Source of the DNA: Physcia stellaris
Taxonomy: Eukaryota; Ascomycota; Lecanoromycetes; Caliciales; Physciaceae
Length of the DNA stretch: 64,000 bases
Reading direction: 5' to 3'
NCBI GenBank assembly: GCA_018902385.1
Contig: JABSSW010000019.1
Location: 682,001 to 746,000 of the forward strand
In this document: piece by piece, positions 36,156 through 64,000 of the stretch
Layout: the number at the start of each line of letters is the position of its first letter
Position numbering within the stretch: the first letter of the stretch is position 1
Notes under the pieces: generated by a model
Database searches by the model: none
The model's input: only the letters and a program-made list of their open reading frames with translations
What the model was told of the DNA's origin: nothing
Position numbers and translations under genes: made by a program

Positions 36156-39100
36156 CTTCAGACGTTTTGTATTTTTCATTATCTGAATTATCAGATAATG
36201 AAGAAAATCAATGCGATAATTGCAATGCGCACGATTTATCAATTTAATTAATAAACAACAATTGAATCAAACATTTTTTTTCATCATTTTTGAATTTGAA
36301 TTGATTTCGTCGTCGTCATTTGTATAGAATTTGTGATGTTGAATTTTTTATTGCAAATTTTTTTTAACGTCATGATTATCACATCGCAACAACACGTTGT
36401 TATCGCGAAATTTTAAAATTCGTTATCGTTCGAAAATTCGTTGTCGTCGAATTTTGAAAATCAGTTAAACGATTTCATCGACGAATTGAATAATCAATTC
36501 AATATCGCGAAAAAAAATCGATTTTTTTTAAAATAAATCGTGTTTGTATGACTGTATTGATTGATTAATTAAACAAAAACAATAGATTTGCAAAAACAAA
36601 TAAATACAAAATGTTGAAATTGCAAATAATATGTGAACGTCAAAATTCAAATCGCGTTAATTTCGAAATTAAATTAAAACATAATTCGTATATTTGTTCG
36701 AATATTTATCATGTTATCATATTGTTTATTTGCGTCGAAAAAAGTGTTGAATCGATTGATTTCGACGTTTGAAATCGATTTCGAATCGTTTAATCAAATA
36801 ATCAAAATTATTGTTTTTCATTGTTTCAAATCAACAAAAATTCGTCAAAAATAGATTTCAAACGATTGAAATTTGTTTTAAATCGTTCATTGTCGATTCA
36901 AAATTTACATTTGAAACATTTAATTGCTTTAGAATGTTTCAAAACTTTTCAAATTGTTTTCGTATTTTCAATAGTTTTGTCGATTGAACGTTTTTATGTT
37001 TTTTTCATGTTGTTTCGTGCGCGTCATGTATCATTTTGCATTTTTGTTTTTTTGATGATTTTTTCATTCATGTCATTTTTTTCGTTTTGAATATTCATAT
37101 CGTTTTTTTTATTTTGAATATTCATATCGTTTTTTTTATTTTGAATATTCATATCGTTTTTTTATTTGAATATTCATATCGTTTTTTTTTGATTTGAATA
37201 TTTATATCGTTTTTTTTTTTGAATATTCATAACGTCATTTCGATTTTTGAATTATTGACAATTTGTATTGTTTTTGTAATATCAAATTTGTTTTATTTTT
37301 TTCATTTCGCGCACGTTTTGAATTTTTTGTTTTACGATGATCGTTAACGCAATTTTTATCATTGTATTTATTGATTCGTATTAAATTATCAATCAAATTT
37401 TAATTGATTGTTTTTATCAAACACGAAATGCAAAATTTGTATTCAATATATATTAAATCGTTTTTATCATTACATTATTTCGCATCGTTATTGATTTTTC
37501 GAAATGTTTTTTATAATTCATTTGCAATTTTTTTTTCATTGAATTGTAATTTTCATTCGTTTTGATAAATCAAAATTTTCGATGCAAAATATATTCAAAT
37601 ATTTTTTCGTTTTGTACATTCATTTTTTTACATCATGTTTGTCAATTCAAATCGTACGTGAACGTTCATTTTTGATTGTTTTGTTGTTCAATAAAATGAT
37701 AAATTTCATTTTTTTCGACGATTCGATTTTAAAATTTGCGTTTTTTATATTTTGCTATTTATGATTGAATAATAAACACATTGACATCGCATGTGTAAAT
37801 TCGATTTATCAATTTTTCGACACGTTTTTCAATTTTTTCGTTTTCGTATTGAATTCGTTTTTTTTTATTTCGCGTTGTTTTTTTTGTTTTCAATGAATCG
37901 ACATTTGAATTTTCGACAATTGATGTCACGCGATCATTGTTTGTAAAAAATTTGAAAACGAAACGACATTTTGAAATCGTGTCAAATTTTTTTTCAAAAA
38001 ACATGATATGATTTTGTTGTAATTGACGTTAATATTTCGATTGACGATTTCATCGATCAAATTTGAATTATTGATATCAATTTGACAATTGTTGAACGTA
38101 AAAATTCGTAAAACAATTTTTTTGTTGTTTCGCAAAATTTTGATTGTTTCGATCGAATAATCACATTTCAATGAAATGATTTTTGATATTTCATTGTTTT
38201 TTGCGTTGATTGTGATTCGATTTTTGATTTTGTTTTGAAAATATTTGCAAATTTCGTTTTGAATTTGAAAATTCAAATTTTTTCATGTTAACATGTAAAA
38301 TTCGTAATTGTTTATTGCATATCAATATTTTAAAAAATCGAAACGACGTGTATCATATTTTTCATTGTTAAATTTTCGAATGTCATGTTTGTTTTTTTAT
38401 TATTCGCAAAAAAAAAAATTTTAATCGCATGATATATGATTGTGATTACAAAAAATATCATAACAAAACGAAATTTATTGAATATGTTTTTGATGTACAT
38501 TTGAAAATCGAAATCATTTTTGAAATTTTTGAAAAATAAATCGTAAATCGCAATAATTATAATGTCGACAATAAATGATATAAATTACATAAACATTTGT
38601 AAATTTGTATTATAATTGTTGACACGCAATTATTTATTTTCGATTCAAAATTTTTATAATTAAAACGAATGAAAACATGATTGTGTAACAATTTCGCAAT
38701 CAATTAATGAAAATTAATAATGATTTCGAATTTATAATACGAAATTATTATGTTTTTAATTTTGTAAATTGCATTAAATCGAAAAACGTCGATTGAATCG
38801 TATATTTGTGTTGACGTTAATGTATTTGCATATATTCGACGTAAATAATTTTACGATTCGCGTTTCGAAATTTTGCGATACATTCATGATTTTCGAATGT
38901 CGTTTTATGTTGCGTTCAAACATTCGTTTGCATTTTTGTTACATTTTCAAAATAAAATCGTTGATCGCATCGAAATTATGTTTTGTTCAAACGTTTAATT
39001 TGATTTTGATATATTCATTGAATATTAATGTTTGAAAATAAAAAAAAATTCGTTTTATCAAATATGCATGTTCATCATTAAAAAAAATTGTTTTTTCGTC

Positions 39101-39866
39101 GTTTGATAATTTTTCAACATTATCGTATGATCGAAATTTCGTTCGAACATTCATGTGACAAATGATTTTGTCGAAAAAAATGTCGATTTATATCACGTCG
39201 ATATTTTCGTTTGTTCGTTTTTGATAAAAAAATAAATTCGTTTAATTTGTTTCGATTTAATAATGATTGTTTTTTTACGATTAATGTAAAAATGTTTGAA
39301 ATATTAATTAATATCGAAATTTTATATTGTAAATGATTTAATATATTGTTTGATATTTTTTGAATAATATAATTTACAACAATAATCAAACGTTATTTTG
39401 ATATAATATTCATTTTTTTTTTTTGAATTTTTATTGTTGTTGTCGTTTTTTGTATCGAATTCGTCGTTCGATATATTTTTAAAATTATTCGAAATAATTT
39501 TGCGTTTTTTGAATAATTTTTGTACATTTTTTTGTTGTATTGTTTAAATGTATTTTATTATATACGTGCAAATGATTAATTTGTTTTTGAATTAATAATA
39601 TCATTTGATTGAACAATTTATTTCGTGAACAATTAATTGCAATATTGATTATCGCAAAAAAACAATTTCGAATATAAATTATGAATGTTGTCGATGAAAT
39701 TTCGTATTATCGATCTTCGCGTTTTTGAATCGATTTATTTTGTTCGAAATCATTGAGTTGATCAATCGAAAAAATCGTGAATCGAAATCATTATGTTGAA
39801 TTTTGATATAATTATGTAAAGATCAAAACGTTGACAAAATAATGTTTAGACGCAAATTACGTGATT
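36156..39866. repeat. AT-rich, heavily mutated repeat-derived DNA
   Basis: There is no supported gene in 3.7 kb of very AT-rich DNA. C is followed almost only by A or G. In 36301-36540 I counted 33 Cs and none is followed by C or T. Open frames here are low-complexity and run equally on both strands, as expected by chance in such sequence. The original element type is not recognisable. Confidence 0.7.
37089..37234. repeat. Tandem repeat, 25-28 bp unit, six copies
   Basis: Six copies of a unit beginning GAATATTCATATCG followed by a T-rich spacer, starting at 37089, 37116, 37143, 37168, 37196 and 37221. The spacer length varies by one to three bases. GAATATTC is itself a palindrome. Confidence 0.85.
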
Positions 39867-39871
39867 AAATT

Positions 39872-40159
39872 TGTAAAATGCACGACATCAGAAATGTATA
39901 ACAAAAAACAATATTATTTTTAGACTAATAATTGCAAAATTAATTATTTTTCAAAAGATTTGTTATGTACACGTTTTGTTATATGCAACGTACATATCAA
40001 TTATCGCATATGCGCGAATATCGATGCGTTAATCGTTGTTGCGCTGATTTTATTAATATCGTGAAATTGCTCGTTTCGTTGTATAATCGACTTGATGTTT
40101 CGAATCTTGACGAGATTCGATTCGCACTTTTGCAAACTTTGAATTCTGAATTTCTTACA
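39872..40159 (-). repeat. LTR of element A, mutated copy
   Basis: A 288-bp terminal repeat aligned by eye to 45224-45512. Most differences between the two are transitions in CpC/CpT or the complementary GpG/ApG context, with this copy carrying the T or A. A few differences lie at CpG or CpA. Confidence 0.82.
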
Positions 40160-42539
40160 CGCGTTTTCTTTTAAACATCGAAATTTCTTGAAATAATAAA
40201 ATTACACGCTTTGCAATATGTTTGCAGCAAAAATTTCTAGATTTGTATATTGTATGTTTGATTTTTGAAATTTGAAAAATCGTTGTAATCGCGATTTTCG
40301 CATCGAATCGCAAACTTGAAAAATCATTGTGATCGTGATTTTCGCACTCGTCATTCTTTTCGATTCATATTCAATTTGCATTAAAAATCTGAAAACATTT
40401 TCTTGAGTGATTCAGAAAAAGTGATTTGATGATTTCGACTGTTTGTTGCTTTCAATGTCGAAAATCTGATTTCGTACAATTCACAACTTTCGATTTGATG
40501 ATTGACAACTAACTGTGTGACAGTGAATTCGAATTCGAATCATTTTTACTATTTTTTATTTTTTTATTTTCTACATCGAATCAATGAATTGCTTGAAAAA
40601 GAAAAAAATGATTAAACGCGAAAAACGTCGAATAGACGCGATCGCATTCGATATATCAAATTTCGAAAATTTTTTCGATTTTTTATTTTCATTTTCACAA
40701 TATTCAACGTTCAATTAAATCGAACAACAATTTCTGAAAATGTTTTTGACACGATTCAGTTTTTCATGCGTCGTAAATTCTAAACAATAAACAACACAAA
40801 GTTGATGACATGAAATCGTGATGTTGACATGATCGTTTCGAATCACGATATTGCATGACTGTTTTCAAGTCAATTACTTCGTCAAAGAAATTATATTTGC
40901 AAAAGACTGAACGCGTCATGATATTGAATTGTTTTCGAATCGATTGTATCATCAAACGATTGCATTCGTCGTGCGATTGATCGTCAAATATTTTTTCGTT
41001 GCACGATTTGTTCGAGACTCGATCATTTATTTGTGTTTATGAAACGTCGATCGCGTTGCGATATTGACATGATTATTTTCGAATCAATTGTTTTATCGAT
41101 AAATTGCATTTACAAAACACGTTTAAACGCGTCGTGATATTTGATGTCAAATTGTTCGAATCAATTGTATCGTTAAAAAGATTGCATATGTCGTGTTGTC
41201 GATTTTCAAATTCGTTTTCACTGTACGATTTGATCGAAAGTTGATCGCGATATTGACATGACTGTTTGTCGTCGACTTCGATACGTTTTTGTTACATGAT
41301 TTGATTTTGACTTGTTGTCAATGTCGATGATTTTGATTGATACATGAATTTTAAATTGTTGTTTTTAACGAAATTCTTTTTCTTTTTTTAGTCATAATTT
41401 TCGACAGAAACGAAACGTTAACTCATAAACGTTTTGAATATAATTATGCGATGAATTTATTTTCAAAATATTTAAAATGATTGTTCAAGTCGTTTGTATT
41501 ATGCATTCGATAAATTGTTTCGAATTTTGAATTATACGCATTTAATAACACATTTTTTGCAAATTTGATTTATTTTGCAATTTTGAAAAATTTCGACAAA
41601 ATTTCGAACGTCATGTCATTTGCGAAATCTTTTGCGATCGTTATTTTTTGATAAATAATTTATGTTTTATTTTTTGATAATTTGTTATGAAATTCACGTA
41701 AAGTTAATTCGTATCAATGTTTATTGAATTGAAACGATAATTTATCGTGTAAATTGAAACGAAATGTTTAATGACATTTTCGATTTTTGTTTGCATGTTT
41801 AAATTTTGTCAAAATGTTTGCAACGATCTGTATCTTGCAATTTCAAAAATACGACGAGATGTTGTGTTTGATTCACGCATGTCTCGTAGTTTGCGATTTT
41901 GTTTATGTCTTAAATCGAACGAAATGTTTTTTCAATTGATCGTTATTTCGCTTTCGATTTGCGCAATACATATGAAAGTATACAGAAGTTCAGACGAGAT
42001 GTCTGTTGCGATTTATATATTTCGCAATTTATGACTTCGTAACATTTCTTGATTCTCGTCACATGCTCAAATTCTGACAAGACGTTCTAGTTGACAATAT
42101 GTTTCGCAGTTTGCGATCTTGCTTGCATGCTAGAATCGCTCGATGTTCGATAGATCATTTCGTTTGATTCGATTTACAATACTTTCGTATTGATTTTGAA
42201 ATGTTTTCATCAAATTGCTCGATCAGAGAAGTGTCGCGATTGCACGTATCACGTCTTTTTCTTAAAACTTGACGACATTACAAACAATCAATGTCAAATC
42301 TCGTTGTCATTTTGATTCTAACGACTTTGTCGTCGTTTTATTTTAACGAATTCATCGTCTTCTTGTTCTGTAAAATGAGATGACAAATACAAGCAATTGC
42401 ATGTCAGATTTCATCGTCATCTTCGTCTTGTAAGACGATTTATCGTCATCTTCGTCTAAGCGAATTCATCGTCATCTTGATTTTAACGACTTCATCGTCA
42501 TCTTTGTCGATGCATGAGCGACCATTCAAAAATAGCTAA

Positions 42540-45223
42540 TTTCTGTTTCATTATCACGCACGAGACTTGAATTAGCAATTGAACGAATCAGTTGAACTTT
42601 CAATGATTTTCGCTCGTCATATGTCTTTTGAGATTCTTGAATATGTTTCTGCTCAGTCACCTCATATGATCGACCGAAGAATTGTTGCATTATTCAGTAC
42701 TATTTTACATTCATCGACGATCACGTCTGATGCACAACCGTGAGCTTCAAGGAGATCACCTGTTTCTGATGACTTTTTTCTCCATGTAGACCCCCTAAAG
42801 GTATTATCTACATTTTGATTTGGCTTCTGCATTCCCGCTTGGCCGCACCGAAAAGACTTGGAGGACCACTGTGGCCGTGACCTCCGCATTTGGCAGGTTC
42901 AAATTGAACGTCTGCAGAGATCGTCGCAACCATGCCATCAGACTGACGAGTGCTTCGGTCTCTCCCCAGTAGCTTTGTAGTCGGATCGTCTGGATTAAGC
43001 CAGCCCATCGTGCTCGCTGAGGTTTCGGTGATATTGTGGCCAGAGTCCCTTGTGGACTTGTTGCATCGCAGGAGTCATCGGCCTAGCCGAATCGACGATG
43101 CAGAATAGGTGCTTTCACAAGCATGTCAAGTATACGTTTCGCCGACGTTTAAAAGCTTGATTGCTTCGACAGTTGATTGTGATTCGCAAAGTGTATGATT
43201 TTGTCCGAATACACTATATAACGTAAGAACTAGACGTTTCGCCAGAATCTGTTTGCAGACGAATTAGCGAGACGAGAAATAGATATACTCAACGACCTGT
43301 TTCAACGTCGCATGGCGATGTATTTCGCTCCGAGCGAAGCCTGTTACACGCCGCAACCACATGGGAACTGATAGCTGCGTGTGCAACCATATGATCTGTA
43401 CAGATGCCTTCGCCGGGCAATAATGCCCAAATAATCCATAGAGCTCGTATAGACAGCGAATCGACGTCAAGCAGTTGAATGGTATACTAACGTCTTCGCC
43501 GAACGATATATTCCGCTTTTGACGTCGCTTGTGCTCGTCATCTGATCTAGTCGAAGCCTGCTGTACGCTGCACTCCTATGTAAATCGTATAGACGCAAGG
43601 CCGTCGCCGAGCAGTCAGATGATAGAATTGACGGCAAGCCTTATTGCATGCTCGTGACCCATTGTGAGTCCGCCAGACAAATTGTATACTCTTCCAGACC
43701 TGTTGCACGTTTGTTGAGCGTGTTGTTTGTCTTCCAGATCCAAAATACGTCAATTCGTGACTGAATGACTCGCATCTTCCTTGTCGATGTTTATGCCTTC
43801 GATCTTCAATTGGGCCGGACTTATACGGGCTCATTGTTCAAGCTACACCTCATATGGAGCCGTATCCTCGCCACGATGTATTTGTACGAATGCACCGAAG
43901 GCTCTATCCTGGCTATAGATAATAGAACCGACTGGTTCTTCCGGCTCGATGTGCTCGAAACGATTTATGGTGGAGAGGTTTTGCATTGCAGAATGCCAAG
44001 ACCGTATATTCACGTTGGCTTCGATAATTGCATCCAGGACAATCTCACGAAATCGGCTGATTTAGATCAACTCCTAGAAGCACCTACGGCTGTCCTTGTT
44101 CGAGAGTGCCACTCGTACGAAGTAGACGCCGAGGATCCGAGTTGCCTGCTGTTTAAGACTGCAGCATCGTGGCTAGGGACCTGGAGTGAAACTGCTTTGA
44201 GTTCAGCGAAAGACATTACTTCGGACTGACCTCTCTATTGCAATTAGCCATGCGGGATTTCCTGCGACAACGCTTGGTGCTAATGCCAGCAGAGCTCGTC
44301 GCGGGGGACCCGTTGCTGCTATTGCTTGTTGCTTGGTTATTGGGGCCTCCACTATGCGATGTGGACTTGATCGGAGGTGACCAAGTGGCCCAATTGTTGT
44401 TTTCTCCACGGTCAGCTCCTGCAGAACCGACACCTTTCTTGCTTGAAACAATATAAGCCTCATGGAGCTCAGGTGCGTTCTTGCTTGCTGCATTGACAGC
44501 TCACGCGGCCGAAACGTCGACGATACAGTGTATCTTGACTGACTCCCTGTTAGCCTTATCGAATTTGGGCTTCCTACCGTCATCTTGGCCTTGGGTTGCA
44601 TTGTATCCATATGATTCAACAGCCGTCGTGAAGCTCTTGTTCAGGCCAGCATCCGACCTGCTCTTGTGAATGTATTGGTGTTCTAGCTTTCTATGCTTTG
44701 CAGTGGAAGTCTGGAGGCCAGAGCCGTTGCTCTCGAGTTATTTCTCGATGGCTTGGGTATAGAAAGTCCATTCTGCATGGGTGCTCCGGCAAGCTGCGCA
44801 GGCTTTTCCAACTGCCTTGACGTTCTTGGCCTGCCGCTACTGCTATGGCAGTCGAGGATTTGGAACGATTGGCGCTTGTCGCTGGAGATGCCAATGAGGC
44901 CGAATGGTTAAAGCCACGTATGTAGGCTTGTCGTTGGATGGAGGTAGCTCCTGAAGCTCTGCTTTGAAGCTTCTAGCTCTTCAAGCTTGGACTCGCTCCC
45001 TAGACTGAACAATGGGTGATAGCAGGGCTATACAATCAGCCATGATTGCGATACTTAGCTGTATAGTGTAGGCTCTTCGTTCTCGGCCTGCTTCTCATCC
45101 AGGCTCTCGTAGAATCGATTTCTCGTTCGAATCGAAGCTCGAGGACGTAACAGCACGTCCAGTCGTTGAGCTGATAGCTATACACGAGTGGTGCTAACCT
45201 GATGGTTATGGTAGTTATTAGAA
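42540..45223. other. Low-mutation island within element A
   Basis: Ordinary base composition returns inside the AT-rich block: CC, CT, GG and AG are frequent here. The stretch aligns loosely with the mutated interior of element B around 48.2-51.4 kb, so it is element-derived and not host DNA. No host gene is seen. The longest frames (for example 43765-44229) lack recognisable domains. Confidence 0.6.
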
Positions 45224-45512
45224 TGTAAGGTGCACGGCACCAGAGATGTATAGCAGGAGACAGTATTATTCCTAGACTAATAACTGCAAAACTAACTATT
45301 TTCTAGAAGATCTGTTATATACACGTTCTGCTAGATGCAACGTACACATCAACTATCGCATATGCGCGAATATCGATGTGTTAATCGTTGTTGCGCTGAT
45401 TCTATTAATATCATGAAATTGCTCGTCTCATTGTATAATCGATCTGATGTTTCGAATCTTGACGGAATTCGGCCCGCACTTCCTGTAGACCTTGAATTCT
45501 GAGTTTCTTACA
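45224..45512 (-). repeat. LTR of element A, little-mutated copy
   Basis: A 289-bp terminal repeat, starting TGTAAGGTGCACGGCACC and ending TTTCTTACA. It is the least mutated of four related LTR copies in the window (39872, 45224, 45837 and 51391). Confidence 0.82.
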
Positions 45513-45517
45513 AAATT

Positions 45518-45831
45518 TTATATACACAAATCATGTTTTTATACAAATAAAAAACTAATTTATCGTTTTTCAAATCACAAAATTTCAACAGAATTTTTAC
45601 GTCGAATTAAATTTTGATTGAGTCACACATCGCAATGATTCGATTTTCGACGAATATTCATGATTTTTGATTGAATAACAGCGTCAACATTTGCATTCAA
45701 AAAACATGAACATATATAACGATTTCTTTTGCGTTTTTTTTTTTTTTTATCACAATTTCAAATTTCGAAATTTCGATTATCGTTTGACAAAACATTTTCA
45801 AAATCACAACGTGAATTGTAATATGAATTTT
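45518..45831. other. AT-rich spacer between elements A and B
   Basis: About 314 bp of AT-rich mutated DNA between the two target duplications. No gene or recognisable repeat. Confidence 0.5.
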
Positions 45832-45836
45832 TGTGA

Positions 45837-46136
45837 TGTAAAATTCAAAAAATGCGACATCAAAAATATATAACAAAAACGATTATATAATTAAATTAAT
45901 AATTGCAAAATTAATTGTTTTGCAAATTTTCAATTATATAAACAATTAATCTGTTGAATTTTGTACGAATTCGCAAATTTTCGCGCATGAATATTAAATG
46001 CGATATTCGAAATGTGAATTTTGCTAATTGCAAATCGAAATTGTTCGTTTCGCGATGTAATCGATTTGATGTTTCGAATTTGTTTAACGAAATTCGATTT
46101 GCATTGTTTGTAAATTTGAATTTTGAATGTTTTACA
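45837..46136 (-). repeat. LTR of element B, left copy
   Basis: A 300-bp terminal repeat, starting TGTAAAATTC and ending TTTTACA, homologous to the LTRs of element A. Confidence 0.78.
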
Positions 46137-49100: not shown

Positions 49101-51390
49101 AAAATCAAATTTATTGAAATTTTTTGATTTGCGTCGAACATTTTTTATATAATAATTCATTTTGTTGATTTGCACATTCATCGAAAAAACGACAAAATTT
49201 TTTTATTTTTGCGTTTGCACATTTTGAAAAAAACGAACATGAACGATAATTCGTGAAATATATGATTTTTGTTTGAATACATTATAACGTATAAATTTAA
49301 ACGTTTCGTCAAAAATTTATTTTGCAAACGAATCAACGAAACAAAAAATAAAACGATATATTCAACAATTTGTTTCAATGTCGTTTGACGTTTTGTATTT
49401 TGTTTCGTGCGAAATTTGTCGTATGTCGCATGTTTCAATCATATGAAAATTTGTAATTTCGTCAAACGATAAAATCGAATAATTCACATGAACGAAAATT
49501 GTTTGAAAATTTCGTTACATTTTTTAATTTGTATAAATGCAAAATCGTCGTCAAACAATCAAATAATAAAATAAACGTTTTCGTCGAACGATGATAATCA
49601 AATGAAAATGTAAAAATTGAAAAATTTGATAAAATTATTTTTTAAATATTTGTTTAAATAATTTCTCAATATTGTTAATTATTTTTCGATAAAAAATAAA
49701 TAATGTTATGAAATGATTTTTTGTTCAATTGCAAATTTTATTGCATGTTTATGATTTATTGCATATTCATGATTCATTGCGAATTCGTTAAACATATCGC
49801 GTGTTCGTCAAATTTGTTGCGTGTTTATTGAACGAATTGTATGTTCGTTGAATTCAAAATTTATTCGATTCATGATTCGACGATTCGCGAATTTTATTGT
49901 CGATATTTTTGCATATGTTTTGATTTTCAATAAAATTAAATTTATACGAATTCATTGTTCAAATTGCATTTTATGTAAAATCGTATTTTCGTTACGATGT
50001 ATTCGTACGAATACATCGAAAATTTTGTTTTGATTGTGAATAATAAAATCGATTAATTTTTTTCGATTTTATGTGTTCGATATGATTTATGATGAAAAAA
50101 TTTGCATTAAAAAATGTCAAGATCGAATTTGATCGATATATTCATCTTGATTTTGTTGTTCGAAAACAATTTCACGAAATTGATTGATTCAAATCAATTT
50201 TTAAAAACATAAACGACTGTTCTTGTTCGAAAATTATATTCGTACGAAACAAACGTCAATGATTTGAATTACTATTTAAAATTGCATTTTCGTGATTAAA
50301 AATTTGAAATGAAATTGTTTTGAATTCAATAAAAACATTATTTTTCAAATTGATTTTTTTATTGCAATTAATCATGCAAGATTTTTTGCGACAACGTTTG
50401 ATGATAATGTCAACAAAATTCGTCGCGAAAAATTCATTGATGTTATTGTTTATTGTTTATTGAACAATTCATTATACGATTTGTTTGAAAATGATCAATT
50501 GATTCAATTGTTGAATAATTCAATGATTGTTGTTTTTTTTGATCAATTTTTGCAAAATTAACATTTTTTTTGTAAAACAATATGAATTTTTTGCATTGTT
50601 TTAAATACAATTTTGTTTGTTGCATTGACGATTCACGTCGTCGAAACGTCAACGATACAATGTATTTTGATTGATTTTTGTTAATTTTATCAAACGTAAA
50701 TTTTTTATCGCGATTTTCGTTTTGAAAATCATTGTATTTATTGAAAACGTCATGTGATTTTTTTTTTTCAAAATGTTTTGTTTCAAATTTTTGTTGCAAT
50801 CACGATTTGATTTAATTTTGAAAATGTATTGATATTTTAATTTTTATGTTTTGCAATGAAAATAAAATGATTTGAATCGTTGTTTTCGAATGATTTTTCG
50901 ATGATTTAAATGAAAATTCATTTCGCATGAAAATTCTGACAAATTGCGCAGATTTTTTCATTCATTTTGACGTTTTTGATTTGTCGTTATTGTTATGAAA
51001 AATCAAAATTTGAAACGATTGACGTTTGTCGTTGAAAACATCAACGAAATCGAATGATTGAAATCATTTATGTAAACTCGTTGTATTAAAATGATTTGCA
51101 TTCGCAATTTTGTTTTGAAATTTTCAATTTTTTCAAGTTCGAATTCGCTTTTTAAATTAAACGATACGTGATAACAAAACAATACAATCAATCATAATTG
51201 CGATACTTAATTGTATAATATAAATTTTTCGAATTTCACGACATTGTTTTTGTTTGTTTTTCGTTCAAATTTTCGTAAAATCGATTTTTTGTTCAAATCG
51301 AACGTCGATGACATAACACGTTCAATCATCAATTGAATTGCTTGCTATATACGAATGATATTAATCTGATGATTATAATAATTATTAAAA

Positions 51391-51687
51391 TGTAAAATTC
51401 AAAAAATGTGACATTAGAAATGTATAACAGAAACGATTGTATAATTAAATTAATAATTGCAAAATTAATTGCTTTGCAAATTTTCAATTATATAAACAAT
51501 TAATTTGTTGAATTGTACGAATTCGCAAATTTTCGCGCATGAATATTCATGCGATATTCGAAATGTGAATTTTGTTAATTGCAAATCGAAATTGTTCGTT
51601 TCGCGATGTAATCGATTTGATGTTTCGAATTTGTTTGACGAAATTCGATTCGCATTGTTTGCAGATCTAAATTTTGAATATTTTACA
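51391..51687 (-). repeat. LTR of element B, right copy
   Basis: A 297-bp terminal repeat, starting TGTAAAATTC and ending ATTTTACA, matching 45837-46136. The target duplication TGTGA follows it directly. Confidence 0.78.
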
Positions 51688-51692
51688 TGTGA

Positions 51693-54534
51693 CATCGTTA
51701 ACATTTTTTGATCAGAAAATTCGCAACGATAAACATGACGTTTCAACAAACGATCGATACGTTGTCGTTTTCAATTCAAACGTTGAATTTCAAAACGATA
51801 TATCGTCAAAATCACGAAATTTACAAACAAGTCATTGTTCATTGCGAAATGAAACAATTCGTTCAATTAAATTTCAAACAACAATGCAAAATATTGATTA
51901 TGATAATCATTATTTTGTTTGAATGTTCGAAATCGAAACAATCAAAATTGCAACGAAATCAAATCAAACGTCATGAATTGAACAAAACACGAACAATTTT
52001 CAAAATTTTCGAAAAAACGAATTCGTTGAAAAATGAAAATAAAAAAATTTTGAATCATGTTTTGAAATTGCGCGCGACGCAAATAAAAACAACGTTTCGA
52101 ATTGTTTTGTAATCATGTTGCGAAAAAGAAAAAAAAACGAACGTTGATATAAAATAAAAATTGCAAACTGTAATGAAAAAAAAAAAAAAATAACAAATAT
52201 AAAAATTGATCGTCGTTGAATTCGAAAATTGTTTTGTTATGAAATGTATTCGCAATAATTGTTATACACAATATAATTGTCATTTCTTTTCAGATTCGAA
52301 TCGAATGTTGATATAAAAACACAAAAATTGAAATGTAAATTTGTTAAAATCAACGCGACATCAAATATATATCAGAAAAACAAAAAAAAAAAAACGATGT
52401 AATTTAACGCGAAATGTTTTTGATTATAATTGACGAAATTGATTGAACAAAATTTTTGTCGTCGATTAAAACAACGATTGTTTGTTTTGATCGTTAAATT
52501 ATTTTGTTGTTTAACGTGTTTCGCGAAAATTTACATTTATTTGATTTTTAATGTGTTTTTGTTATGTATACAAACATGTCATTTATTTTTCGTTTGATTG
52601 TTTGTATTTTGCAAAATTGCGATATCGAAATCGATTGAATTATTAACACAATTTCAAATGTATTAAATCATCGTTAATTTCAAATATGATTTTTTTGTTG
52701 TTGAAATGATCGATTATGACGATCAACAACAAAAAAAAAATGAAATATTGTTTTTTGTTATATTCATATTCATACTTTTAACAAAATTTTTTCGTCAAAT
52801 TTCGAATTTAAATATTCGAATGAACGATAAATGAAACAACGTTAATAATATTTGTTGCAATCGTTGTTTTTCATAATTTGTATTTTGCGATGTTTTTCGA
52901 AATATTCAAAATTAAAAACACAATTGCGAAAATTAACGAATCGTCACAAATATTTGATCATGACAATTTAAAATTTTCGTAACACGATTGTTGTCGATGT
53001 TAATTTGAAATTCAAAATATGACAAAATGTTCGAAAAAAATTAAATTAACAAACGTGATATTTCGATCGCATTTGAATCGATTTGAACGTTTATGAACAA
53101 TTTTCGATCGTGTTCAATAATTTCAACAACAATTAAATGATATTAAAAATGAATATCGAAAATATTTGAATACAATTTATAAATCGTGCATTCGCGAAAA
53201 TTTTTTGCATTCGAATACGATATTCGAAATTTTTATAATTGACGAAATTGTAAAAAATTATATATTGTTTGACATCGAATCAAATTTGCATTAAATTCAA
53301 TTCGTTTTCAATCATATTTTAAATTTTTGTCAATTTTTTTTGATTTTGTTTGAATATATTTCGTGTTGCAATTTTCGTTTTTGATTTTTAAAAATCGAAA
53401 AAAACGAAATAAATCGTGAAAAATGTGTGAACAAAAAAAAAAATTGAAAAACGAATTGAAAAATGATTTGAACACGAAAAACGAATTGAAAAAAAAATGA
53501 ATTAAAAACGAAAAAAAAAAAAAAAAAAAATTGAAAACGAAAAAAAAAAATGAAAAATCGTTGTCGTTACGACAATTCGCACAAAAATGTTGAAATTGAT
53601 GCATTTAATATTTTGAATCGAATTGATCGCAAAATATCGATTTTTTGAAAAATTGTGCGTCGATTTTTTTTACAATTGAATACGTTAAATTTTAATACAA
53701 ATCATTAAATCAATATGTTTTTTTTTATTTGCATTGATGATTTATTTTGATTTAATTTAATGAAAAATTGCAAATAACGAAATTCATAAAAATACATTTC
53801 GAAAATCGCGATTTTTCAAAAACGAAAAAAATCGCATCGTTAATTTTTGACATTTTTCAATTTATATAATTCACAATATATGAATTTCGATTCAAAATTT
53901 ATATTTACATTTTTTTTTTCAATATTTGCACAAATATATTAAATTTCAAATATTTATCGTGATTTTATCGATGAAAATAATTGAAATAATTATGTTTTTT
54001 GATCGACACATTTCGTTATAACAATTTTTTTTTAAATAAAAATGTAACAACATCGAAAACGACATTGAATAATTGAAATTTTATGATAAAATTGATATTG
54101 CACGATTTTTTTGATAATATTAAATTTGCGCGTTTTCGTTTGCAATTGTTGTTGATTTTTTGAATTCAATAAAACAAACATATTTTTTTTTTTATATTAA
54201 ATCGATATTGTCGAATATTGTAAAATATTAATTTTTGATTGTGATAAAAATCGATTACAATTTTTTTGATATTGACATGATTGAATTTGTCATTCAATAT
54301 TTCATTTCGAATCAATTTTTTTCAAAAAAATATAAATTATTTTGTACGTTTTTTTGTTTATTTTTAAATCGATGCGAATGCGATCATTTGTTCAATAATT
54401 CACGTTCAATTTTTTTCAAATTTTTTCACGAAAACATTGTGAATAATTATTGTGTTCGATATTTTCGATATGTAATTCGCGCACATACGAACGTGTCAAA
54501 CACGCATTTTAAAACAATTAATGTTATAAATTTG
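51693..54534. repeat. AT-rich, heavily mutated repeat-derived DNA
   Basis: A 2.8-kb stretch without a supported gene and with the same CpC/CpT depletion. A-rich runs near 53.4-53.55 kb create low-complexity frames. Element C is inserted at its right end. The original element is not recognisable. Confidence 0.65.
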
Positions 54535-54539
54535 CGAAT

Positions 54540-54860
54540 TGTAAGAAATAAGAATCCAGAATCTCCGGAAGTGCGACTCGCATCCCGTCAAGCAATTCGG
54601 TTATCGAAATTCGAATGACTTCGAAAAAAAATCAGTTTCAATCACTTTACAACTCGATCAACGATAAACTCAACAAGCTCATATTTTCAGTCGAAATCGA
54701 TCGAATTCGTACGATTGAATAAATAAAATGCAAATAAAAAGCAGCTGCAGAACGTAGTCTGTTTTGTAGCGATTAATAAATCAATATACTACATCTCAAG
54801 CTATACATCTCTGATGTCAATAATTCATTAGACTATACTATTTCTAATACGAGTTTTACA
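54540..54860 (+). repeat. LTR of element C, left copy
   Basis: A 321-bp terminal repeat starting TGTAAGAAATAAG and ending GAGTTTTACA. Directly inside it is TTCTAATCGCTATCATACC, a leader shared with element A on the opposite strand. Confidence 0.88.
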
Positions 54861-57800
54861 TTCTAATCGCTATCATACCTCAGAATGGTATCACTCGTGT
54901 ATACTTAACAGAACACAGTTCTGTTGTTTCGCATACATCATGTCGAGCTCTGATAATGATTTGTTCTCTGAGTCTGTCGAGAATGCTGATTTATCTTTCT
55001 GATTGATCTATTACAAACAACAAATCGAAGAAAATCACAAGAAAAAAATCAGACTCAAAGTTCGAATTGTCGAGCGTTCGAAATCTGCAATCACTATTTC
55101 ACTTGTCTTTACTTCACTTATTCTTGCTTTTGATTCTGTTTGGAAGTTTTTCGTCATGAAGATCATCGAAACGACACCGGATCAATATGAAGAAAAAAAC
55201 TACAAGAAGTGAAAAAATATTGCAAACAAATGAAAAGTCAGTTTACGCAGAACAACGTGAATCACATGATTCAATTTTCGGATTTAGTCAAGATCGCATA
55301 TGCTGATATTTATTTTAAGTCAGATAGCAATGCGAACAAACTCTGAAACGCAGAAATCGATTTCTCATTCAGACAAACAATACATTTGAATCGAATTCAA
55401 AGCATTTTTGAAGAGCGACATCGAGCGAACAATCACGTTGCAACAGAATTTTTTGAAAAAGTATCGCAAGCACAAACAGGGCCACAATCAGTCGGTTAAG
55501 GACTACAATGCCGAACGGGTAAGTATGCTTGCTGAACTGGAACCCGAGTTCAGATTCACGAAAACAATGAAATTCAACGATTTTCGTGACGAGTTACGTT
55601 TGGAATTTCGCTGCATGCTTCTTAAGAAAAAGAAGATTTTCACAAAAACGAAGCTGTTTGAACGACTCAAACGTATGAAAGACGTTCAGGTTTTGAAGAA
55701 AGAACTCAAGAATTTCAAAAAGCGTAAAATCTCGTTCGATACTGACAATTTTGAAAGCGAGAACGAGAAATTCAAAACTGCGAAATCTAAGAAAAAAAAA
55801 TCAAAGATACTAACAAGATCAACTCGAATCACGAACCAGTCAAATCGAAAAATACTCGAATGTATCGCTGATTCGCTAGCGAATTCAAGAAGATTCAAAA
55901 CAAAAATAACTGTATAAATTGTGACAAATCAAATCATCAAATCGAAATCTGCACAGACAAAAAGAACAAAATCATTTTCGTTGATCAAATTTTTGAGCAG
56001 TCAAAAAACTAGTCGGCTTGATGATTTTCGTTCAAGTCGTTAAAAAGAAAAAAATCTTCGAGCTCTGACTTCGATACGTCGTTCTTTTCAGACATGAGCA
56101 AGAATCATGTTAACAAAAAAAAAAAAACGGCGCAAGAAGTTTAGAGAATTGATGATTCGTAAATGCGTTAAAATCAAAATTAACATACAGAGCAAAAATC
56201 AGGTCTGGAACGAATCGAAAACAATACTCGATACAAAAGCGAAAATTAATTTGATAAGTCATGTTTATGCGAAAAAATTCGATTTTCGTCGTTTCGAAAT
56301 TCTAAATTGTGATGCAATAACAATTGACAGTCATCGTTTGAAGACATATGACGTTTATTTCGTACAACTCGAAATGTCAAACGTCGAGAGAGATCAGTCG
56401 TTTCTTCGAGAAATCGTTTCTGACCGTGAACTTGAACTGGAATTTAACGTTAAATATGTTTTGAATACAGTTTTCGAGAATCAAAATGAATTGAGACGAC
56501 GACAGTATCAAAACTTAGCGTTGCAAAAAGAAGCATTTCATTTTCACGACGAATCGTATCGAGAACATCGAATCAGAACAATTGGTCATAGACGTCATCG
56601 ATAACGAAGTTGAAACGTATTTCATGTTCGTACGAATGTATATTGACAAGCAGTTCGACATGCATGAAATGCACGTTTTAAGACGAGTTCAAATAAAATC
56701 TGTTTTGATTGAGATGAAAGAAAAATTTGATGTCAAAATCACTTTTCTCGATATCTTGAAGACGTATGAAGAATTCGATAGCGAAAATAAGATTTACGAA
56801 TTATCGAATCATGATTCAGACGATCATGCTATTGATTTAGAAAAGAACAAGAAATCGTCGCATGAATCAATTTACTTTCTATTCGAAAATGAGTTTCGAG
56901 TATTACGTGTTTACATCGAGAAACATTTAGCTAACGATTTCATTCGATTTTCACAGTCTTTTGCAGGAGCGTTCATCTTGTTCGTCAAAAAAAAGAACGA
57001 TAGTTTACGATTATGCGTGAACTACAAAGATTTTAATGCTTTCACGATAAAAAATAAATACTTTTTATCGCTAATCGATGAGAATCTAAATAAATTCAAC
57101 AAAGTCGTCAAATATATCAATATCGATTTGATTGTTGCTTATCATCGATTGCGTATCAAGTATGAAAACGAATGAAAAACAGTTTTCGTACTCGATATGA
57201 TCATTTCGAGTATAACGTATTTTTTTCGATTTCACTAACGTTTCGACGACGTTTCAAGATTTTATCAATCGAATTCTGGCGATTCGTCTCGATATTAACG
57301 TCATAGTATATTTGGACGATATAATAATTTACTCGATGAACGTCGAGATTCATGTCGACGATGTCAAATGAATTTTTGATCGTTTTAAAAAAATAAACTA
57401 TATATTGTTCTTGAGAAATGCAAATGATTCGTTGACGAGATAAATTTTCTTGAGTTCGTTGTTTCACTCAAAGAAATACGAATGCAGAACAAAAAGATCG
57501 AAATTATTCAACAATGATTTGTATTTCGCAACGTTTTCGACATCATGCAGTTTCTCGACATCGTTAATTTCTATCGACGATTCATTAAACATTTCAATAA
57601 AATTGCTGAATTTTTGATCGCTATGCTAAAAGAATCGCAAAAGTTACGAAAGAATATTCGTAAACGCAAACGAAGTCAAAATCGAAATCGCAACAAATTT
57701 CCGAATATTCACATCTTTTTGATCAGTGAAACGTTGAAAGTTTTCAAACGATTTCGCAAAACATTTATCGAAACATCAATTTTACGTCATTTCGATTTCG

Positions 57801-60800
57801 AGCGTGTTATTCGAGTCGAAATCGACGCATTCGACAAAATCATCGAAATCATTTTATGTCAACAAAACGACGAAAATCATTGACATTTTGTTGCGTACTT
57901 TTCACGCAAAATGATTTCGATCGAATGCAATTACGAGATTCATGACAAGAAGTTGCTGACTATTGTGATTTCGTTCAAGCAATGAAAGCACTATTTCGAA
58001 AACGCAAAAAAAGCAGATTTTTGTTTTTATTGATCATCGCAATTTGAGACAGTTTATGATCACAACTAAATTGTCGTCACGTCAGATTCGGTGAGCTCAG
58101 AAGTTGAGTCGATATAATTTTTTAATCGATTATCGTTTCGGTAACAAGAATTCTGTTGACGAATTTTCAAGACGATTTGATCACATGATGATTATTGAGA
58201 GAAACGTCGAAAACAATCGTCAGATCTTGAGGCAATTGCAGGAGTCATTGATCGCAAACTCGGAACGTTTCGAGAAAATGCGAATAGATGCGATCAAAGT
58301 TATGAATGCGATGCATGTCATGAGACGACTCATGAATGCGATGCATAGCATGAAGCGTCGATCGCATCTAAATGATTCAGAGAATATCGAATCAATCAGC
58401 GCTGTTTCAGGAGCATTTGACTCAGAGAATTCAAAACGAGATCGAATTTCAATCAGCGCTGTTTCGAAAGTATTCGATTCAAAGAATTCAAGAAATTCGA
58501 AGCATTCGATTGAGCAGAAATCAGACGTGACATTCATAGAATGAAAAATTTTTGTGTTAGAATCAGCGATTGTATCTGAGTGCGCAATGCATAAAGTTCG
58601 AATACAGATTGCTTTACGAGAGAAGACGACATATAACGACGAATCAACACTTTCATTGTTGAATCTCGTTCGAAATTTGATCGATAAAGATCAGTTCGTT
58701 TTTGAAATATGTCGGGAATTAATTATTTCGAGGACAGAAACAGATCATTGACAACACAAAAATGAACTTTTGTACTACGACGACGTCGTTTACATTTCAG
58801 AGAGTTTGCGTGAGAACGTTATTCGTGTCAATCACGATAATTCGTTCGTTGATCATTTCGACATCGAACGAACGTTGAAACTGATACGTCGAAAGTATTA
58901 TTGATCGAATCAGAATTCTATCGAAGTTTTTGAAATGCGACAGCAAATCAAGAAGCATTGTGAAACATGCGTCGTTTGCAAACGAAACAAAATTGCACGA
59001 CACAAATCATACGACGAGCTTTTTTCTCTTTCGATTTTTGAATTTAAATGAGTTGATTTTTTTCATGAATTTCGTGACAGAGTTTTTTTCAAATAAAGCG
59101 TGAAATGAAGCGATTTACGACTCGATTTTAGTGATTGTGAATCGTTTAACGAAGATGATTCATTACATATCAATGACTAAAACGATTTTCGCAAAAAATT
59201 TGGTCGAAGTTTTATTTCGCGAAATTATTCGATTTCACGATCTTTTTCGTCAATCGTTATCGACAGAAATTTCATTTTCACATTCAAGTACAACGATGCG
59301 TTGTGTTACGTTTTGAAGATCAAGCGTAGATTGTCAATCGTTTTTCATTTTCAGATCGATGAACAGATCGAGCGAATGAACAACGTCATGAAGCAGTTTT
59401 TTCGCGTTTTCGTCAATTTCGAGCAGAATGATTGAATAAAATTGTTGTTCATGATCGAGTTCGTTTACAACAACAGCAAACACGCATTCACAGACATTTT
59501 TTTGTTCGAGATCATGTTTGAATATTCGCTTCGCATGTTTTTCGAGAAAACATGAAACAAGAAAGTTAAATTCAAATTCGCAAAAAAACACGTTGAACAT
59601 TTAGTTGAGTTATTTCGAATACTGAAAGACAATTTATTCGTGACACAACAACAGCAGACAATGTACAAAGACGAACGCACAAAGTCAATGTCATACAACG
59701 TCGAAAATTACGTGAATTTGAACGATAAAAACATCAAGACTAAACGAAACAAAAAGTTGAAATGGAAATTTTTGAGTCATTTCAAATTCTAGAAATTATA
59801 GAAAATCAAATTTATCGTTTAGATTTATTCAAACGTTGACGCATTCACGACGTTTTTCACGTTTTTTTCTGAAGAAATTCAATTTTAAAAAAAAAAAAAA
59901 AAGCATACGTCACATTCTTTTGAATTTTCGTATCAAGTTGAAAATATTGAACTCGACGAAAACATGAAAGTGAAAATCACGAAAAAATTCTATGAAATCG
60001 AAGTCATTAAGAACAGCAAGATTTTCAAAACAAATGAAATTTCAGACAAATTTTACAACGAACTCGATTTCTACTATTTGATAAAGTGAAAAAACTATGA
60101 AAACGCGATTTGAAAGTCTGTCGTTTGTCAAGCATTTTCGAAAAACTTTGCGACAATTTCACAACGAAAATTCAAAGAAATTTGATATCAATAAGAAAAC
60201 AAATCATCGAAAGTCACGAAAAAAATGAGTTGAAATACTTATTGCATGTTAACACATTCTCGTTTTCAAAACTTTGTGTGCTATTTATTGTTTAGAATTT
60301 ACGGCGCATGAAAAGCTGAACTGTGTCAGAAACATTTTCAAAAATTGCTGTTCGATTTGATCGAACGATGAGTCGTTGAATAAGAAATGTGAGATAAAAT
60401 AAAAAAAGAATTTCGAAGTTTGAATATCAATGCGATCGCGATTAATGAACGTCTATCGCGTTACACATTTTTTCATGATATCGATGCTGATATTCGAAGT
60501 AAAAAGATGAAAAAATGGAAAAATGTTCGGATTCAGAATTTTTGTCAACAAATCAGCTGTCAATCATCATATCGAGAATTGTGAATGATACGAAATCAAA
60601 CATTCGATCATGAAAGCAACAAACAGTTGATTCATCAGACTATGCTTTTTTTGAATCACTCAAAAAAATGTTCTTTCAGATTTTTAACGCAAATTGATTA
60701 TTGAATTCGAACAAAAATATTTCGAGATGCGAAGATCACGATTATAGTGATCTTTCAAATCAATGCAAAATCAAGACAAGCAGAACACGTCAAAGCAAAC

Positions 60801-60865
60801 AGAATACGTCAGAATCTCTGCTAGCATGTTGATCTCAAAAACTTCGATGTTTAGAAAAAAACGTA

Positions 60866-61185
60866 TGTAAGAGATAAAGATTCAGGATTTTCGGAAGTGC
60901 GATTCGCATCTCGTCAAGCAATTCGATTATCGAAGTTCGAATGACTTCGAAAAGAATCAGTTTCAATCATTTTACAATTCGATCAACGATAAACTCAACA
61001 AACTCATATTTTCAGTCGAAGTCGACCGGATTCGTACGATTGAATAGATAGAATGCAAATAAAAAGCAGCTGCAGAACGTAATCTGTTCTGTAACGATTA
61101 ATAAATCAATATACTACATCTCAAGCTATACATCTTTGGTGCCAATAATTCATTAGACTATACTATTTCTAGTACGAGTCTTACA
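60866..61185 (+). repeat. LTR of element C, right copy
   Basis: A 320-bp terminal repeat starting TGTAAGAGATAAAG and ending GAGTCTTACA. It is followed by the target duplication CGAAT (61186-61190). A short purine run lies just before it. Confidence 0.88.
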
Positions 61186-61940
61186 CGAATGATGTTGTGT
61201 TTAATCGTTAAATTAAATTTTGTATAACAATGCGATAAATTTTTTTCGAAATTGAAATGTTGATGCATTCATTTAACGATTAAATGAAAATCGACGAATA
61301 TGAAAATGATATGCAATATTGTTTATGCAATTGTCAAAAAAATTAAATGAATTCGATTAAACGCGATCAATCGCGTTCGATTGAATTAATTTCAATCAAA
61401 TTGTTTCAATTAATCGAATTTTCGAATTTTACGAATTTTGAAAAAAAATTCATATTGAACATTTTTTTTTTTTTTTAAAAATACGAAAAATTTCGTATTT
61501 CGTACGATAACGTTTCGCGATCAAATTTCGTTTCGTTGTTTAATTCATTTTTTCAAAATTTAATGTCGAATTTGTCAAATTGATTTTTTTAATTGCAAAA
61601 TATTTTAAACGATTAACGCAATTCGCGATCGAATAATTCATATTATTTTTCAAAAAATTTTCAAAAATTTATTAATTTATTGATTTTCGAACGCATTTTT
61701 TTCGTGTCAACACATTTGTCAATTATTTTCGTAAATTTAATAAAAATCAAATTTCACAATCAAAATTGACATGAAATTTCGAACAAAAATTTCACATCGA
61801 TATTAATTGCAAAAATGTCGACATTGTTCGTTTACATTCAATTTCAAACAAAATGAAATCATTCATTCGCAAATTTTCGATATCGCGATATAAAAAACAA
61901 AAATTTATATTAATTTTTCGATCGCAAACAAAAAAAAAAT

Positions 61941-62431
61941 GATCAAAATTTTCGAAATTCAAAACAATTTCAATTCAATTTTCGATGAATGTTTCGTTAT
62001 TTTTTGATCATTTCAAACGACACATCGATGTCAAATCTGTTACGATTTCAATTGTTTTCAAACAAAACAACAAAAACACAAACGTCAATGCATATCAAAA
62101 AAATTCGAAATTTTATATTAATTTTTCGATTACGAACAAAAAAAAAATGTCGTTGCAAAATTTAAAAAAATGATCAAAATTTTCGAAATTCAAAACAATT
62201 TCAATTCAATTTTCAATGAATGTTTCGTCATTTTTTGATTATTTCAAACGACACATCGATGTCAAATTTGTTACGATTTCAATTGTTTTCAAACAAAACA
62301 ACAAAAACACAAACGTCAATGCGTATCAAAAAAATTCGAAATTTTATATTAATTTTTCGATTACGAACAAAAAAAAATGTTGTTGCAAAATTTCGAAAAA
62401 ATGATCAAAATTTTCGAAATTCAAAACAATT
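61941..62431. repeat. Tandem duplication, 231-bp unit, two full copies plus a partial
   Basis: Copies start at 61941, 62172 and 62403, all with GATCAAAATTTTCGAAATTC. The two full copies differ at about seven positions. Both are already in the CpC/CpT-depleted state. Confidence 0.88.
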
Positions 62432-62663
62432 TTTTTATTTCGATTCGTATCGTGTTTTACGATTTCGTAATTCGTCAAATTGATATTTAATTTCGAAATT
62501 CAAATCAACAAAATATGAAACAATACGAAATTGACAAAAAAATTTGAAAATTATGTACGATTTTAAAAATTTTCGTAATTTGACATTTTTTTTTGATGAA
62601 ATTGTTGCGAAAAAAATTAACGAAAAACGTGTTTTGTCGAAAACAAAAATCATTCGTTTATTC

Positions 62664-62795
62664 GAATTCATGCAATCATTTGTTCGTTCATTCAAATTCA
62701 TGCAATTATTCGTTTATTCGAATTTATGCAATTTTTCGTTCATTCGAATTTATGCAATTTTTCGTTCGTTCATTCAAATTCATGCGATCGTTCGT
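62664..62795. repeat. Minisatellite, about 25-bp unit, diverged
   Basis: About five diverged copies of GAATTCATGCAATCATTCGT-like units. The same unit forms the array at the window end. Confidence 0.75.
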
Positions 62796-63904
62796 TCAAT
62801 TAAATCATTATTGATTTTATTTCATGAATCAAGAAATTTCAATTTAAAAATCGCGTTACATGAATGAATCAAATTTCGAAATTCGTTCGTGATTGATTTT
62901 TAAATCGCACGTATATTTTTATATATATATATATATATATTTTCGCGTCATCAAATACGTAATTTTATATTTTCAATGATTATTTCAATCGAAAACGATA
63001 TTATTTTTGTCAATGAATCATCGCAATCGTCACAAATTAATTATTCGTTCGAAAAATTTCGAATTATTTCGAATATTTTTGTAAAAAACACAAAAAAAAA
63101 CATATTTTCAAACAAACAATGACAATGAATTCATTTTCACATCAAACATTTATGCAAAAAATTTCGTTCAAATTCAAATTTTAAATGCGTTCGAAATTCA
63201 ATTATCGTACATGTCAACAAAATTCAATACATTTGATTTCACGAATAATTTTTTATTTTTTCAATTTGTTTGAACAAATTTTCGAACATCGCGAATTTCG
63301 ATGAAAAATTTAATCGATATATTTGCGTTCGAATCATTGAAAACAAAACGAAATAAACGTGACAAAAATGTTCAAAATTTAAAACGTATCATGAATCAAC
63401 GAAAAATTTCGATTTCGAATAAATTAACACAAAATGAAAACAACGCATTCAAACAATATAATGACGCGACAATTGAATTGTTAACAATAATTCGTATTAC
63501 GCAAAAACACGTCAAAATCGAATTCAACATTGATCGTTTTTTGATGAATTATCAATTCGATTTTTTTGAATTCAAAAAAAAATTTTCAATGTCGAAAAAT
63601 GATTCAAAGAATTTTTTCAAATTCATTCATATTTGTTAAATTGTTTATCACATTTATCATCGAAAAATTGATTTTTTTTTATTCAAACGCAAATTTTATC
63701 GATCAATTAAAATTTTCAAACGAACAAAACGTTTTTACATTCGAATTTTACGAACAAATCATTTTTTATCGTTTCAAAAATTTTGAAACGACGAAAATTC
63801 AAAACAACGTTGTCATTGACATTTATGAAAACAAAAATTAAAATTCGATCAAAAAAATCATTATCGAACAATATTTTTTGAAAAATTACAATGTTTCATA
63901 ATTT

Positions 63905-64000
63905 GAATTCATGCAATCATTCGTTCAATTGAATTCATGCAATCATTCGTTCAATTGAATTCATGCAATCATTCGTTCAATTGAATTTATGCAATCATTC
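63905..64000. repeat. Minisatellite, 26-bp unit, running off the window
   Basis: Nearly four copies of a 26-bp unit starting GAATTCATGCAATCATTCGT at 63905, 63931, 63957 and 63983. The array continues past base 64000, so its length is unknown. Confidence 0.88.

Follow-up and report, generated by a model that had tools for sequence, protein, structure and literature searches.

The repeat block and its dinucleotide signature

The DNA analyzed here, a 64,000-nucleotide stretch of the Physcia stellaris genome referred to as the window (C19:682001-746000 in an assembly of 43.97 Mb and 147 contigs), passes from gene-rich host DNA into an AT-rich block of repeats in which C is retained almost only before a purine. 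The features are listed in Table 1. Throughout, CpY denotes C with a pyrimidine as its 3' neighbor (equivalently, G with a purine as its 5' neighbor on the opposite strand), and CpR denotes C with a purine as its 3' neighbor. The block contains three long terminal repeat (LTR) elements, A, B, and C. Element C was assigned to Ty3 because a frame at 56519-57172 matches the Ty3 reverse transcriptase 4ol8 (E 3.3e-8) and another at 57518-57880 matches RT_RNaseH_2 (E 7.7e-6, under the curated cut-off). Six frames, taken from the mutated elements and from the nearly unmutated island within element A, contained no Pfam domain at E <= 0.01.

Table 1. Layout of the window (position 1 is its first nucleotide)
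Feature	Position	Strand	Details
Host DNA, rich in genes, dinucleotides normal (control)	1-35500		GC 0.491, CpY/CpR 1.02
Left edge of block	36000-36200		CpY 10 to 1 per 50 bp, CpR steady at 8-10
CpY-mutated repeat, saturated from ~36250	36156-39866		CC 0, GG 0; 37001-39000 is family 1
LTR element A, ends mutated, interior nearly unmutated	39867-45490		LTR-like repeats ~39872-40129, 45224-45481
LTR element B, saturated relative of A	45821-51690		LTR-like repeats ~45821-46136, 51375-51687
Saturated CpY-mutated DNA lying between B and C	51691-54539		1-kb dinucleotide rows
Ty3-like LTR element C, family 2, partly mutated	54540-61187	+	LTRs ~54540-54860, 60866-61185
Saturated CpY-mutated sequence	61191-64000		CC 0, GG 0

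The first-pass annotation, made from the letters of the window, had described this block as shaped by loss of CpC and CpT, with CpA and CpG surviving. Its sample count was reproduced exactly: the 33 Cs of 36301-36540 are followed 12 times by A, 21 times by G, and never by C or T. CC and GG are absent from all of 36156-39866 (CT, 7; AG, 13; CA, 188; CG, 187), 45837-54534 (CT, 42; AG, 32), and 61191-64000 (CT, 1; AG, 2). The annotation's reading depended on CpA being depleted less than CpC and CpT and on the loss being confined to the block. Both were found; the host DNA at 1-35500 is ordinary (CC, 2065; CT, 2322; CA, 2481; CG, 1864).

Rates per 100 bp were compared between the host and three saturated segments (36400-39866, 45990-54534, and 61191-64000, given in that order). 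CC+GG falls from 11.47 to 0.00 in all three and CT+AG falls from 13.40 to 0.40, 0.85, and 0.11, while CG (5.25 in the host; 5.11, 5.18, and 5.52) and CA+TG (13.77; 11.94, 12.80, and 12.31) are kept. TT+AA rises from 13.49 to 38.6-40.3 and TA from 4.79 to 7.56, 6.21, and 5.37. Despite this gain in TA, the TpA/ApT ratio drops (0.74 to 0.37-0.50) because ApT gains more; it stands at 0.49 in 36156-39866, 0.45 in 45837-54534, and 0.37 in 61191-64000. GC content is 20 to 28% in the saturated parts (0.205-0.268 in the 1-kb windows of 37001-40000 and 46001-54000) and ~0.33 in element C (54540-61190), against 49% in 1-35500.

To express the signature as a single index, we used CpY/CpR = (CC+GG+CT+AG)/(CA+TG+2CG), which is 0.005-0.037 in the saturated parts, 0.355 in 54540-61190, and 0.79 in ~42300-45200, compared with 1.02 in the host. 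The annotation had treated 36156-64000 as one block; its signature holds in the saturated parts, but the block is not uniform, since ~42300-45200 is nearly unmutated and 54540-61190 is intermediate. Across the graded left edge (~36000-36200), CpR remains at 7 to 13 per 50 bp throughout 35950-36750.

Canonical repeat-induced point mutation (RIP) of the Neurospora type prefers CpA and raises TpA/ApT. Standard RIP indices, with thresholds as quoted in PMC10998396 and PMC3164635 (printed variants of the second formula exist), flagged none of the 54 block windows, one of the 70 host windows, and none of the three edge windows.

The saturated DNA also carries a 231-bp tandem duplication, 94% identical, at 61924-62385, and minisatellite-like runs with a period of 26 to 30 bp at 62648-62805 and 63885-63986. 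On the host side, Pfam domains (GT2, GH88, and ECM11) were found in three of the seven long frames of 1-35500. The ECM11-domain gene (PF15463, E 1.3e-27; 21297-23399, minus strand) lies ~13 kb from the repeat block; ECM11 is a meiotic synaptonemal-complex protein.

Mutation spectra of LTR pairs, repeat families, and a ribosomal DNA unit

The two LTRs of an element are identical at insertion, so LTR pairs reveal changes without an outside ancestor. We scored sites with a C in one LTR, adding both directions. The changed fractions were 11/11 CpC, 25/43 CpT, 3/69 CpA, and 3/66 CpG in element A; 7/7 CpT, 9/81 CpA, and 4/67 CpG in element B, where no CpC is present; and 9/12 CpC, 19/68 CpT, 0/66 CpA, and 1/71 CpG in element C, whose LTRs differ by 29 C/T or G/A changes and no transversion in 318 sites. 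Pooled, the pairs gave 20/23 CpC, 51/118 CpT, 12/216 CpA, and 8/204 CpG; CpY (71/141) differs from CpR (20/420) at Fisher p 3e-32, and CpC from CpT at p 1.5e-4. The comparison of element A with its relative B (CpC, 200/231; CpT, 349/463; CpA, 177/678; CpG, 141/594) carries background change in all classes, because these are old relatives (66% identity).

Two families were followed through the genome, each with 43 listed places, of which 20, including the window's own copy, were fetched and aligned; for family 2 (54800-57800), 40 of 265 candidates were scored. Every one of the fetched copies in both families carries the CpY signature, to varying degrees. For family 1 (37001-39000), 18 copies were compared with two reference copies, both left out of the set. 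With the less mutated L024 as the reference, the changes amounted to 71/71 CpC (cells from ~4 sites), 1492/1569 CpT (95%), 728/4219 CpA (17%), and 272/3268 CpG (8%); with L018, they amounted to 18/18 CpC, 825/866 CpT (95%), 744/4177 CpA (18%), and 384/3331 CpG (12%). The CpA and CpG changes are well above other substitutions (e.g., A to T, 161/8829) and could be due to a weaker second activity or to subsequent decay at CpA. In family 2, ordered pairs of the 20 copies gave 94% of CpC, 69% of CpT, 5% of CpA, and 2 to 3% of CpG changed, and the spectrum was equal on both strands with the copies pooled. The 5' context is weak (TCT, 0.72; ACT, 0.69; CCT, 0.75; GCT, 0.62), and the base 3' of the pyrimidine has little influence.

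A reference that is independent of the transposon copies is provided by ribosomal DNA (rDNA). With 39 of 2644 candidates scored, a single 5.8S match emerged in the assembly; it sits in a CpY-mutated rDNA unit, L048 (~C41:44399-47552), and intact rDNA seems to be absent from the assembly. Against the Rfam consensus, over large-subunit (LSU) positions 1-453, the whole 5.8S, and small-subunit (SSU) positions 1491-1672, the unit has changed 21/23 CpC, 14/29 CpT, 0/24 CpA, and 0/21 CpG where both the base and its neighbor are conserved (p 8e-14), or 28/34 CpC, 19/39 CpU, 3/47 CpA, and 2/36 CpG with any neighbor allowed. Three more blocks that align well (including LSU 636-726 and SSU 1673-1798) gave 6/7 CpC, 5/6 CpU, 0/4 CpA, and 0/14 CpG. 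The 18S part of the unit has an insertion of several hundred nucleotides at Rfam SSU 1377/1378, possibly an intron. As to affiliation, the best match of ribosomal protein L3 among the 60 listed of 70 matched sequences is PDB 7r81 (Neurospora crassa), with Chaetomium next, which points to Pezizomycotina; a feature of the 5.8S and the 18S insertion would suggest Lecanoromycetes or Eurotiomycetes.

In these comparisons, both strands show the target order CpC > CpT >> CpA and CpG, and the 5' base matters little. The C-to-T mutator of repeats with a 3' pyrimidine context that the annotation had deduced from composition is thus borne out in the LTR pairs, the two families, and the rDNA unit alike.

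Family 2 copies show only 0.57% transversions per site, yet 54 to 97% of their visible CpY sites are lost, so CpY mutation far outpaces ordinary substitution. Action that is processive, or that takes one strand at a time, was looked for and is not clearly seen in the neighbor correlations or the strand comparison: neighboring CpY sites have correlations of -0.03 to 0.03, against approximately -0.003 (standard deviation [SD], 0.013 to 0.016) in shuffles. Most copy pairs have unrelated mutation patterns (median r, -0.06). Unrelated patterns and independent neighbors would point to numerous small events, distributive for the most part, in copies that were inserted separately.

Mutation reaches past the repeat by ~200 bp where the block begins on the left, by ~600 bp in the flank of copy L028, and by ~800 bp in that of copy L027; this flanking DNA may be repetitive in its own right. 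At 40 loci, the outermost 1.5 kb to either side, taken where GC was <30% (84,750 bp, the window's own copies included; the ends of L013 and L022 may include the match), contains CC at 0.02%, GG at 0.01%, CT at 0.59%, AG at 0.63%, and CG at 5.42%. Ten 4-kb places were picked by coordinate. Two of them (L050 and L058) are AT rich, and both carry the CpY signature; a third (L057) includes an AT-rich window of 500 bp in which depletion is partial only, and the remaining places are normal. In this sample, which is not a census, single-copy host genes are spared, as judged from 1-35500 and from eight of the ten places, which are mostly normal DNA.

Within element A, the nearly unmutated interior (42300-45200) lies between mutated ends. 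Its best matches of at least 600 bp are 74 to 77% identical, whereas the mutated first 0.9 kb of the element has over a dozen matches at 79 to 82% identity. All of these identities understate the original ones, because the partners have been mutated themselves. The contrast may reflect a homology threshold acting at a subelement scale.

Candidate enzymes and competing explanations

The annotation had proposed a search for Rid/Dim-2-type methyltransferases. A PF00145 profile search of the assembly matched four places, which correspond to three genes, one DIM-2-like and two RID-like, with no match beyond them; all three sit in normal DNA. The DIM-2 homolog on C3 (608 bits to PDB 9bap) has DUF7893 and a BAH match under its cut-off, and its open frame is 1118 amino acids long. 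The RID-like genes, at C6:790057-794028 (L001) and C5:497355-502600 (L003/L004/L047), share 40% identity across 174 residues of their catalytic portion and keep PPCQ. Their motif VI reads EET and EQT, as opposed to ENV in the DIM-2 homolog, and we take EET/EQT to mark RID/Masc1. The C5 gene has a much longer N-terminal part.

Directed C-to-T change of CpY in repeats, on both strands, is evident in the sequences examined. It agrees with RIP in the broad sense, as do the sparing of single-copy host genes in the sample and the presence of the RID-like genes. Since the CpA hallmark of canonical RIP failed, we file the process as a RIP variant and not as canonical RIP. Between the two options left by the annotation, variant RIP machinery and a different enzyme, the presence of RIP-type methyltransferases favors the former. 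We give a probability of roughly 0.7 to a RIP-like CpY mutator of repeats from the RID/DIM-2 enzyme class, a figure that is not for the choice of RID alone; RIP in the strict sense (premeiotic, homology triggered, and RID dependent) is what we infer as the best account. The block would then be made of nested LTR retrotransposons and further repeats in which a RIP-like genome defense has mutated its target, CpY (CpC fastest, followed by CpT, with CpA and CpG nearly immune). The mutator would act in the sexual cycle on recognized homology, and its agent would be a C5-cytosine methyltransferase of the RID/DIM-2 class, preferably one of the two RID-like enzymes after gaining a pyrimidine reading at +1, with DIM-2 as the main alternative. 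That a RIP enzyme, most likely one RID paralog, switched its +1 reading to pyrimidine and became a CpC-first, CpY-only mutator is in our judgment an even bet.

Several observations weigh against this account. The canonical CpA preference and the RIP indices both fail (CpA, 12/216, versus CpY, 71/141, in the LTR pairs), and CpA is not absolutely spared, since 17% of it is changed in the heavily mutated family 1 (L005-L024) against the L024 reference. In SSU 1400-1490, a poorly aligned region excluded from the rDNA counts, one of five CpA sites reads T and three read another base, whereas one of four CpC and none of three CpU sites read T. Correlations at lags of 5 and 10 sites reach ~2 SD over the shuffles, and the strands of single copies differ in mutated fraction by up to 0.15, which leaves room for slight effects of strand or tract. 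In family 2, the mutation patterns of four copies resemble that of L043 (r, 0.24 to 0.48), and these copies are perhaps not independent of it. The homology threshold is suggested by the contrast within element A, and the sexual timing and the choice of enzyme are points that we infer.

An overlapping account, in which DIM-2 performs the CpY mutation within an otherwise ordinary RIP and the RID-like enzymes only initiate it, is a minority view with us, if a serious one. The open DIM-2-like frame and the CpT preference reported for DIM-2 in the consulted part of a 2026 review (PMC13297926) speak for it; a table in the same review assigns DIM-2 all CpN contexts, and we found no precedent for a CpC-first order. 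The same homolog and the reported preference of Neurospora DIM-2 for CpT (PMC13297926) would also suit slow decay, in which DIM-2-type CpY methylation of vegetative repeats is followed by ordinary deamination of 5-methylcytosine with no sexual burst. We hold slow decay to be improbable, given that 54 to 97% of CpY is mutated in family 2 at 0.57% transversions per site, that the element C LTR pair has accumulated its 29 transitions in 318 sites with no transversion, and that CpC is hit ahead of CpT. The excess is also far above that known for passive 5-methylcytosine decay.

A DNA cytidine deaminase of the AID/APOBEC kind acting on repeats would produce C-to-T changes on both strands without clear clustering of neighbors, as seen here, and the genome has eight matches to the cytidine deaminase family PF00383 (a PF08210 search gave no match but also matched none of 14 controls and is thus uninformative). 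AID/APOBEC enzymes read the 5' base. Here, it is the 3' base that decides and the 5' base that is weak (NCT, 0.62 to 0.75), on which ground a deaminase guided by 5' context was rejected as the leading candidate; we regard cytidine deaminase action as quite unlikely. An artefact of assembly or base calling, with modified C in heterochromatin read as T, is more unlikely still. CpC conversion is complete on both strands in the saturated segments and is graded among the family 2 copies (54 to 97%), and a miscall on one strand should conflict with reads of the other. Ultraviolet or other dipyrimidine damage would explain why CC and CT are hit, both being dipyrimidines, and was rejected as next to impossible because TpC, also a dipyrimidine, is kept (TCA, 5%, and TCG, 3%, in family 2).

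The coding consequences were also considered. Full CpY conversion in silico of seven open host frames creates 45 stops in 2964 codons, every one of them TGA, whereas full CpA conversion creates 184. The family 2 pol frame contains 77 TAA, 88 TGA, and 2 TAG stops in 8510 codon cells; many fall in columns where every copy, or almost every copy, has a stop, and others derive from CAA or CGA. The frame may be shifted at the stops. The prediction that in-frame stops are TGA derived from TGG is thus unsupported by this frame, and we did not use it.

Relation to known systems and significance

The process resembles Neurospora RIP in its C:G-to-T:A changes on both strands, in affecting repeats and an rDNA unit while sparing the examined genes, in its short flank spread, and in the RID and DIM-2 homologs of the genome; it differs in its CpY target with CpC first, in nearly sparing CpA, and in its negative indices. 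Unlike methylation induced premeiotically in Ascobolus, where methylation occurs without mutation, the sequence itself is changed. It is also unlike AID/APOBEC action, with its strong 5' context, in that NCT is mutated at 0.62 to 0.75 whichever the 5' base.

The following comparisons draw on parts of the cited sources. In Botrytis, Sclerotinia, and Magnaporthe, CpT accompanies CpA, the signatures are CpA, CpT, and CpG, and a RID motif for CpT has been proposed (Amselem 2015, PMC4352252); CpT targeting and RID/Masc1 homologs are shared with Physcia stellaris, in which CpC leads and CpA is nearly immune. Anisogramma anomala likewise has two rid genes and one dim-2 gene and mutates CpT, but CpA and CpT are dominant there, with a mean TpA/ApT of 1.14 in repeats (PMC10998396), and CpA is nearly spared here. 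CpT and ApG changes dominate in alignments of RIP-capable fungi (PMC7882544). CpA is slightly preferred to CpT in Ophiostoma, which has no RID according to the material drawn on (PMC4350166), and classical CpA changes occur with CpC-to-TpT double changes in Monilinia (PMC8959702).

Nearer precedents, which count against the claim that CpA is always hit, come from Colletotrichum truncatum, where several Copia/Gypsy families are CpT biased with a raised TpA/ApT (1.6) and, as reported, no RID homolog was found (PMC6180176), and from short rDNA repeats of Stagonospora nodorum with CpT change but no CpA change, which their authors doubt to be RIP (PMC2621366). Both favor CpT over CpA, as here, but the portions of these reports drawn on do not describe CpC as leading. 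DIM-2 methylation is mainly non-CpG and CpT preferring, and a homolog is present here, but it is a methylation mark that covers all CpN and, in the part of the review used, has no CpC-first preference (PMC13297926). Cladonia rangiformis RIP shares the bimodal GC, the sharp edges between genes and transposable elements, and the lesser mutation of later insertions, with a GC peak of ~16% in transposable element-derived DNA, under the 0.205-0.268 found here (PMC12542154). In the portions of the literature on fungal repeat mutation drawn on, we found no CpC-first pattern with CpA and CpG spared; the claim of novelty is provisional because the Clutterbuck 2011 survey, the broadest context survey known to us, was not covered.

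The CpY rule is nearly the opposite of the usual 3' rule of fungal repeat mutation and offers a specificity to map. How RIP chooses its cytosines is, to our knowledge, unsolved, and a genome with two RID-like enzymes and one DIM-2 may serve to map it; purified RID is reported to have no detectable methyltransferase activity (2026 review, PMC13297926, in the part drawn on). A CpY-only mutator, if true, would create stop codons only from TGG and leave CpA and CpG almost intact. There is also a blind spot for surveys, in that the usual indices place these heavily mutated sequences below the adjoining host genes in likeness to RIP, whereas a CpY/CpR count separates it and is usable on any assembly. 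If the CpY-only mutator is real, it would be invisible to TpA-based indices and therefore may be common but overlooked in index-based surveys.

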